Source: a bacterium (GTDB taxonomy: Bacteria > Auribacterota > UBA3054). Taken from it: 64,000 nucleotides of DNA. Position numbers and translations under genes: made by a program. The first letter of the stretch is position 1. Each line of letters opens with the position of its first letter. The stretch lies in assembly GCA_017616555.1 (NCBI GenBank), contig JAFZXZ010000016.1:88642-152641 (forward strand), in the 5' to 3' direction. Positions 28,080 to 45,038 of the stretch are shown here, piece after piece. The notes under the pieces were generated by a model. That model had not been told where the DNA came from, did not search any database, and saw only the letters and a program-made list of their open reading frames with translations.

Positions 28080-28095
28080 TAAAGAGAGCGGATTG

Positions 28096-28192
28096 AGCGA
28101 AAAAGCACATACCCCTCGCTCACGGACTACGCGCGCCTTGCAAACATTAGCGTCCTCCGTGAGTTCGCTTAGGGGTATGTGCTTCTTTCGCT
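28096..28192. repeat. Palindromic repeat unit A, site 1
   Basis: A hairpin of about 97 bases. AGCGAAAAAGCACATACCCC pairs with GGGGTATGTGCTTCTTTCGC-T with one bulge, then CTCACGGA pairs with TCCGTGAG. The apical part reads, in the opposite strand, AGCGAACTCACGGAGGA and GCGCGTAGTCCGTGAGC. It is the reverse-oriented relative of unit B 15 bases downstream and of the two units at 44782-45006. Confidence 0.75.
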
Positions 28193-28206
28193 CTCCGCTC
28201 CTTTGC

Positions 28207-28314
28207 GGCGGAGCAAAGTGTGTCGTGTGCCCCAAGGCGAACTCATGGAGGATGCAAATCAAGGCCATGCGCGCGTAATTGTGAGCCGGGGGCATACGAC
28301 AACTTTGCTCCGCC
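28207..28314. repeat. Palindromic repeat unit B, site 1
   Basis: A hairpin of about 108 bases with a nearly perfect 27-bp basal stem: GGCGGAGCAAAGT (28207-28219) matches ACTTTGCTCCGCC (28302-28314), then TGTCGTGTGCCCC with GGGGGCATACGACA. The core GGCGAACTCATGGAGGA..GCGCGTAATTGTGAGCC differs from unit B at 44913-45006 at about one position, but the outer stem sequence is different. Confidence 0.8.
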
Positions 28315-44720: not shown

Positions 44721-44781
44721 GCACCCCCTTCGCGCACCACTTAACATCTTCCTTTATCGCTAGTTAATCATTTGCCGCTCG

Positions 44782-44883
44782 CTGCCAAAAAGCCACATAT
44801 CCCCCGCTCACGGACTACGCGCTCAGTTTCTCAACCCCGCCATCCTCCGTGAGTTCGCTTGGGGATATGTGACTTTTTGACAG
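44782..44883. repeat. Palindromic repeat unit A, site 2
   Basis: CTGCCAAAAAGCCACATATCCCC (44782-44804) and GGGGATATGTGACTTTTTGACAG (44861-44883) pair at 21 of 23 positions. The inner CTCACGGA/TCCGTGAG stem is the same as in unit A at site 1, with a different loop. The element lies in a 484-base gene-free stretch from the tRNA-Thr gene to the exported-protein gene at 45112. Confidence 0.75.
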
Positions 44884-44912
44884 CTCGCAGGCCAAGAGTA
44901 ACTGCGCAAAGT

Positions 44913-45006
44913 CCAAAAGAAGTGTATGCCCCAAGGCGAACTCATGGAGGACGCAAATCAAGGCCATGCGCGCGTAATTGTGAGCCGGGGGCATACACTT
45001 TTTTGG
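44913..45006. repeat. Palindromic repeat unit B, site 2
   Basis: CCAAAAGAAGTGTATGCCCC (44913-44932) pairs with GGGGGCATACACTTTTTTGG (44987-45006), allowing one bulge. The core AAGGCGAACTCATGGAGGA..GCGCGTAATTGTGAGCC is nearly identical to unit B of site 1 (one changed base, T to C). The orientation is inverse to unit A. Confidence 0.8.
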
Positions 45007-45038
45007 GCGAAGCGGTATTCGCGCGTAAGCGCATCGTT

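Follow-up and report, generated by a model that had tools for sequence, protein, structure and literature searches.

The window, the whole 64,000-nt stretch of DNA that was analysed, belongs to a draft genome (G000; 1.66 Mb in 32 contigs, 84% complete) and contains two sites with the same arrangement, a palindromic unit A on the forward strand followed by a unit B on the reverse strand, although the stem sequences differ between the sites (Table 1). The original prediction drew attention to these differing yet base-paired stems, and they were located where it had placed them. At site 2 the arms of unit A, GCTGCCAAAAAGCCACATATCCCC and GGGGATATGTGACTTTTTGACAGC, pair at 22 of 24 positions, and the arms of unit B form an inverted repeat with 90% complementarity. 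The single-base difference reported for the core of unit B was also recovered: a 73-nt stretch of B is 97% identical between sites 1 and 2, with two differences, one of them inside the core.

Other parts of that description required revision. Units A and B had been treated as two different units; they are inverted copies of one family, with B a diverged subfamily. The stems had been quoted too short, their actual length being 18-24 bp and reaching the conserved CCCC/GGGG. Finally, the element is not limited to two sites, and collection with a regular expression and a covariance model yielded ∼36 copies in the window's genome.

Table 1. Palindromic units and their parts in the window
Feature	Position	Strand	Description
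Site 2, unit A	44781..44884	+	full palindromic copy, in family orientation; G000:C30:133416-133533, 92.4 bits, model R1
Site 2, unit A, left arm	44781-44804		
Site 2, unit A, conserved asymmetric core	44807-44858	+	TCACGGA/TCCGTGA helix; extrahelical GTTC on 3' side; apical loop
Site 2, unit A, right arm	44861-44884		
Site 2, unit B	44913..45007	-	inverted copy, diverged subfamily of unit A's family; core CTCACAATTACG...TCCATGAG; G000:C30:133543-133657, 77.3 bits
Site 2, unit B, arms	44913-44932 and 44988-45007		
Site 1, unit A	28095..28193	+	full copy, other outer stem AGCGAAAAAGCACATACCCC / GGGGTATGTGCTTCTTTCGCT; G000:C30:116728-116844, 106.4 bits
Site 1, unit B	28206..28314	-	inverted B-subfamily copy, outer stem GGCGGAGCAAAGT / ACTTTGCTCCGCC; G000:C30:116844-116957, 64.2 bits

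At the locus of site 2 the outer stem of unit A is CCAAAAAG/CTTTTTGA in the window's genome and TCGGGAAGG/TCTTCCCGA in a related species (G006), a block-wise difference with pairing retained; unit B at the same locus has AAAAG/CTTTT in the former and AAAGG/CCTTT in the latter. The B subfamily, whose core carries CTCACAATTACG and TCCATGAG, comprises both B units of the window together with copies L016 and L032 in G000 and L112 and L127 in G002, and its core helix is partly broken.

A palindrome family confined to a single ruminant-gut genus

Each unit consists of a ∼20-bp arm, an asymmetric core of ∼50 nt and a complementary ∼20-bp arm, ∼100 nt in total. The core (CTCACGGACTACGCGYGC...GCGTCCTCCGTGAGTTCGC) is near-invariant and bounded by CCCC/GGGG, beyond which lie arms of 18-24 bp that are almost perfectly paired, yet differ in sequence from copy to copy with a gradient of similarity across copies (near-core CATATCCCC). 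Among 128 copies stem lengths peak at 18-23 bp and rarely exceed 25 bp. When the left arm of each was matched to the right arms of other copies the median stem was 5, which excludes chance pairing. Stems of 12 bp or less, or poorly paired arms, occur in ∼13% of these copies. Within an alignment of 28 copies (A1) the core helix TCACGGA/TCCGTGA is invariant, and covariation is seen in the Y-R pair next to the extrahelical GTTC bulge (23 C-G, 5 T-A). A subfamily (L071 in G004, L077 in G005, L142 and L158) has GGAATGC instead of GTTCGC at the bulge, adjoining the same helix. A second hairpin family was seen in the flanks of copies of the first, with the core CCC-GTAAGCAAACTYAGCGAAGCYTGTTTGCCAA-GGG and paired arms of 12-18 bp of several types; 23 copies were found in the examined loci (including L004, L005, L009, L010, L015 and L021), and the motif GAGTTYGCTTAsGGG is common to both families.

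The family is present at ∼35-45 copies per genome, scattered at gene ends, in a single genus of ruminant-gut bacteria. Covariance model R1 (E <= 1e-4, both strands, some copies counted twice) matched 54 times in G000, 44 in G001, 43 in G002, 44 in G006 and 47 in G007, the five element-rich genomes (drafts 83-93% complete) of the eight available for the genus. The remaining three (G003, G004 and G005) gave one to three matches each, and seven other genomes of the order gave none. The copies in G003 and some of those in G005 probably represent contamination from G000- or G002-like contigs; the flanks on G003:C100 (L134, L072) and on G005:C76 and C17 (L070, L077) are 96-99% identical to G000 or G002. 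A scan of 84,980 species genomes for the core pattern returned 90 stretches, all from RGIG isolates of the ruminant gut. The pattern had no match in viral contigs, and a phage or virus origin was set aside. Searching the window with Rfam 15 identified only two tRNAs at the family gathering score (best E value at site 2, 0.52), so the element does not correspond to a known structured RNA of that collection.

Covariation of the arms and the level at which pairing is kept

It had been proposed to collect all copies into a structural alignment and to test the outer stem for covariation. Pairing with changing sequence was strongly borne out, orthologous copies included, and the phenomenon is larger than first noted. 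Changes on both sides were found at 21 of the 23 outer-stem pairs of alignment A1, with a covariation score of 0.398 against 0.158 (sd 0.010) for shuffled alignments; none of 500 shuffles reached the observed value and slid partners gave at most 0.134. Because these controls ignore kinship among copies, orthologous loci, defined by flank matches among the 128 copies, were compared as well. Identity there is 85.6% for arms, 85.0% for adjacent flanks and 94.7% for cores, indicating that the sequence of the arms is no more conserved than its surroundings. Over 18 positions of orthologous arms we counted 110 double changes (90 paired on both sides) versus 85 single ones, where independence at the observed arm divergence of ∼14% would by arithmetic give ∼21 double and ∼256 single; in the closest arm pairs (two differences or fewer) the positions were 39 double and 21 single, all these counts being drawn from non-independent copy pairs with a gapless arm mapping that under-counts single changes. 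The covariation is thus genuine. Constraint or homogenisation acts on the sequence of the core; arm sequences are free to vary but do so in concert.

Transitions (105) and transversions (45) among the double changes follow an ordinary spectrum, and the changes show no clustering (72 adjacent versus 68 expected). Block conversion of arms was rejected on this lack of clustering, which leaves long conversion tracts without a direct footprint.

Whether pairing is kept in DNA or in RNA had been left undecided; our results make DNA the better answer. Across 108 distinct copies, 1974 of 2057 stem pairs (96%) are Watson-Crick, with 14 G-T, 38 A-C and 31 other. The excess of A-C over G-T in core orientation would be wobble tolerance on the other strand, but it disappears when the stems at tandem sites are oriented by transcription (11 G-T, 12 A-C), which shows that the transcribed strand does not favour wobble and removes the RNA wobble signature. 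Core orientation relative to transcription is random (28:26). Three loci whose flanks match on both sides (c014, c023 and c026) have cores that point in opposite directions in different species, with the arms in place, and inspection of a fourth (c032) likewise found opposite core orientations between arms in place.

Template switching within a hairpin is a known source of perfect stems, of compensatory changes and of inverted loops, as described for RNA genes (PMC8794818), and it would therefore be a sufficient alternative to structural selection. Both concerted arm changes and loop inversion are present here, as expected of a hairpin evolving in this way, though the double changes do not come in blocks. 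Isolated double changes are also expected from stepwise compensation, and the survival of the asymmetric core bulges means that template switching cannot act freely in the core. Overall, hairpin copying at the DNA level fits the pattern no less well than selection on RNA does. Selection for hairpin structure, as first proposed, is thus only one of two good explanations for the covariation, and the step from pairing to selection is not secured, given the double changes in close pairs, the few wobbles, the core inversions and the short stems.

One rival explanation is selection for an RNA hairpin: copies would act as 3'-end stabilisers or as intrinsic terminators, many of them bidirectional, and compensatory mutations would preserve their pairing. 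Using gene-end positions from simple ORF calling, we found that, of the 148 gene 3' ends next to a copy, 73 are no more than 30 nt away from it, versus 7 of 64 gene 5' ends, and that sites are convergent in 51 cases, tandem in 46 and divergent in 9; a neutral repeat avoiding promoters would yield a similar 3'-end bias. The arms carry an A-run and a T-run, as in bidirectional terminators, in 41 of 108 copies, leaving ∼60% without such runs. At five loci (c006, c008, c021, c022 and c024) element-free relatives have an unrelated ordinary terminator at the same place, whereas at c004 and c018 an ordinary terminator adjoins the copy itself. Some copies may therefore serve as terminators and be under selection as such. 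As an account of the whole family, this explanation is possible but doubtful in view of the missing wobble tolerance on the transcribed strand, the random orientation of the core, the existence of copies with unpaired arms and a 50-nt invariant core that terminators do not need.

Nesting, exchange and candidate mobilisers

The apical loop of the core, as seen in unit A of site 2, is a target for nesting in other copies. Nine copies are nested in this loop of a second copy, always at ACGCGTG|, and in 9/9 the inner unit starts within a few bases past the outer CTCACGGACTACGCGTG; some have inner arms in common and are possibly related. One outer copy (c015, holding L161 in G002) is unoccupied in G000, G001 and G007. 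No target-site duplication, as would mark a MITE, was seen at the empty sites inspected, though divergence of the intergenic sequence there precludes a systematic comparison. At c022 in G006 a copy is half-replaced, combining its old left arm with the right arm of another subtype. The outer arms of L013 (G000:C11:37008-37123) and L014 (G000:C31:53002-53117) are unpaired and resemble a reciprocal swap of two arm types. Such half-replacement and swapping point to recombination between dispersed copies. Comparison of genomes thus shows, through filled and empty orthologous sites, nesting, and exchange of apices and arms, a family that is both dispersed and dynamic.

The nesting, together with the terminators that relatives have where copies stand, could also be read as a short mobile core entering the loops of pre-existing terminator hairpins, the outer stems being the target's own. 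We regard this as improbable and already weakened: nested inner units carry their own 20-22-bp arms, stems seldom exceed 25 bp, arms share a similarity gradient, and at orthologous sites of G003 and G004 that are empty, the arm sequences are missing. The last observation led us to reject outer stems as former terminator stems.

An equally slim chance attaches to the core hairpin being a single-stranded-DNA recombination site, similar to attC or REP, at which a recombinase such as Xer would cause the inversions, swaps and nesting. The invariant core with its conserved asymmetric bulge, the core inversions, the reciprocal arm swap of L013 and L014 and the exact nesting point would all suit such a site, and G000 encodes two Xer-type tyrosine recombinases. 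However, element-poor G004 also has two, these Xer-like genes are likely housekeeping, and ordinary repeat recombination plus template switching can make swaps and inversions. No integron integrase was found in G000 beyond the two Xer-like genes, and no attC-type R boxes were seen. Integron attC sites are imperfect palindromes with extrahelical bases, variable in sequence with structure kept, in which conservation lies in the outer boxes and the tip is variable. The family has the imperfect palindrome, the extrahelical bases and the kept structure in common with attC and reverses the pattern of conservation, its tip being conserved and its outer part variable; unlike attC, no cassette array was seen with it.

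Searches for other mobilisers, run with positive controls for PF01797 (Y1_Tnp/RAYT), found neither this domain nor PF00078 (RVT_1, reverse transcriptase) in the five element-rich genomes, although a gene could be missed in drafts that are 83-93% complete; within the genus both matched only in element-poor G005. PF02371 (IS110, Transposase_20) had no match across the genus genomes. On this basis RAYT, reverse transcriptase and IS110 were set aside as mobilisers. The units are intergenic palindromes, many of them standing in inverted pairs, but the idea that they are REP/REPIN elements moved by a RAYT transposase can be dismissed almost entirely, with the Y1_Tnp gene in 0/5 element-rich drafts (83-93% complete), no terminal GTAG tag, and a ∼100-nt unit with variable stems as opposed to 20-40 bp (PMC3733652).

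Relation to known hairpin elements and proposed origin

REP, BIME and REPIN elements (PMC3733652, PMC2817692, PMC3116915) are likewise small, palindromic, mostly intergenic and found in inverted pairs, and complementary changes in the stem have been described among their subfamilies too. The present family differs in its ∼50-nt core, ∼20-bp arms and nesting in its own loops, and lacks both the terminal GTAG/CGTC tag and RAYT. GTAG stems of REP elements are said to contain G-T pairs commonly (PMC3733652, PMC2817692, PMC3116915); here such pairs are rare. The units are not 20-40-bp palindromes with an unpaired GTAG at one end, and no conserved tag lies outside the arms; nor do they have the conserved terminal inverted repeats of MITEs, since the arms vary between copies. 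The RHE and DHE hairpins of sponge and fungal mitochondria (PMC2800124) are also dispersed, thought to be mobile and to act as recombination sites, and have no identified enzyme. They are mitochondrial, whereas this family resides on a bacterial chromosome, and sponge RHE has conserved stems and varying loops, the reverse of the conserved core and varying outer stems seen here. The family therefore resembles REP and mitochondrial hairpin elements in kind, and departs from REP in the defining features tested. It also has features known from template-switch mutations in genes for hairpin RNAs (PMC8794818), namely perfect stems, concerted double substitutions and in-place loop inversion; there, in rRNA and microRNA genes, a double change with loop inversion is extremely rare, while here the setting is a dispersed repeat with the core inverted at ∼4 compared loci.

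We propose that these elements are small interspersed DNA palindromes restricted to one genus, whose arms are kept complementary largely at the DNA level and which are mobilised via their core, a reading to which we assign a probability of roughly 0.5. In a strand folded into the hairpin, one arm would be copied from its partner by template switching or quasi-palindrome correction, and such copying would maintain complementarity largely at the DNA level and could account for the in-place inversion of cores. The core would be the recognition part and the apical loops of existing hairpins the preferred landing site, with a mobilising activity that, as far as the drafts show, would be other than RAYT/Y1, reverse transcriptase or IS110; we infer mobilisation from comparison only. 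Less firmly, copies that settled at gene 3' ends may in some cases have become bidirectional terminators, adding selection on pairing. A more specific version is unlikely to hold in full: a mobile DNA hairpin without a dedicated transposase, landing in apical loops including its own, with arms copied from each other at replication such that stem sequence is free and pairing is not.

Looking forward, covariation is routinely taken to prove that RNA structure is under selection, and this family provides a natural case of strong covariation alongside signs of a DNA-level cause, namely no wobble preference on the transcribed strand, random orientation and in-place inversion. Having tens of copies in each genome, and orthologous copies in five species, it can be used to tell selection and hairpin-templated copying apart. 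Copies also nest in one another at one loop position with no known hairpin transposase, and how palindromes of this sort spread is a question that this raises.
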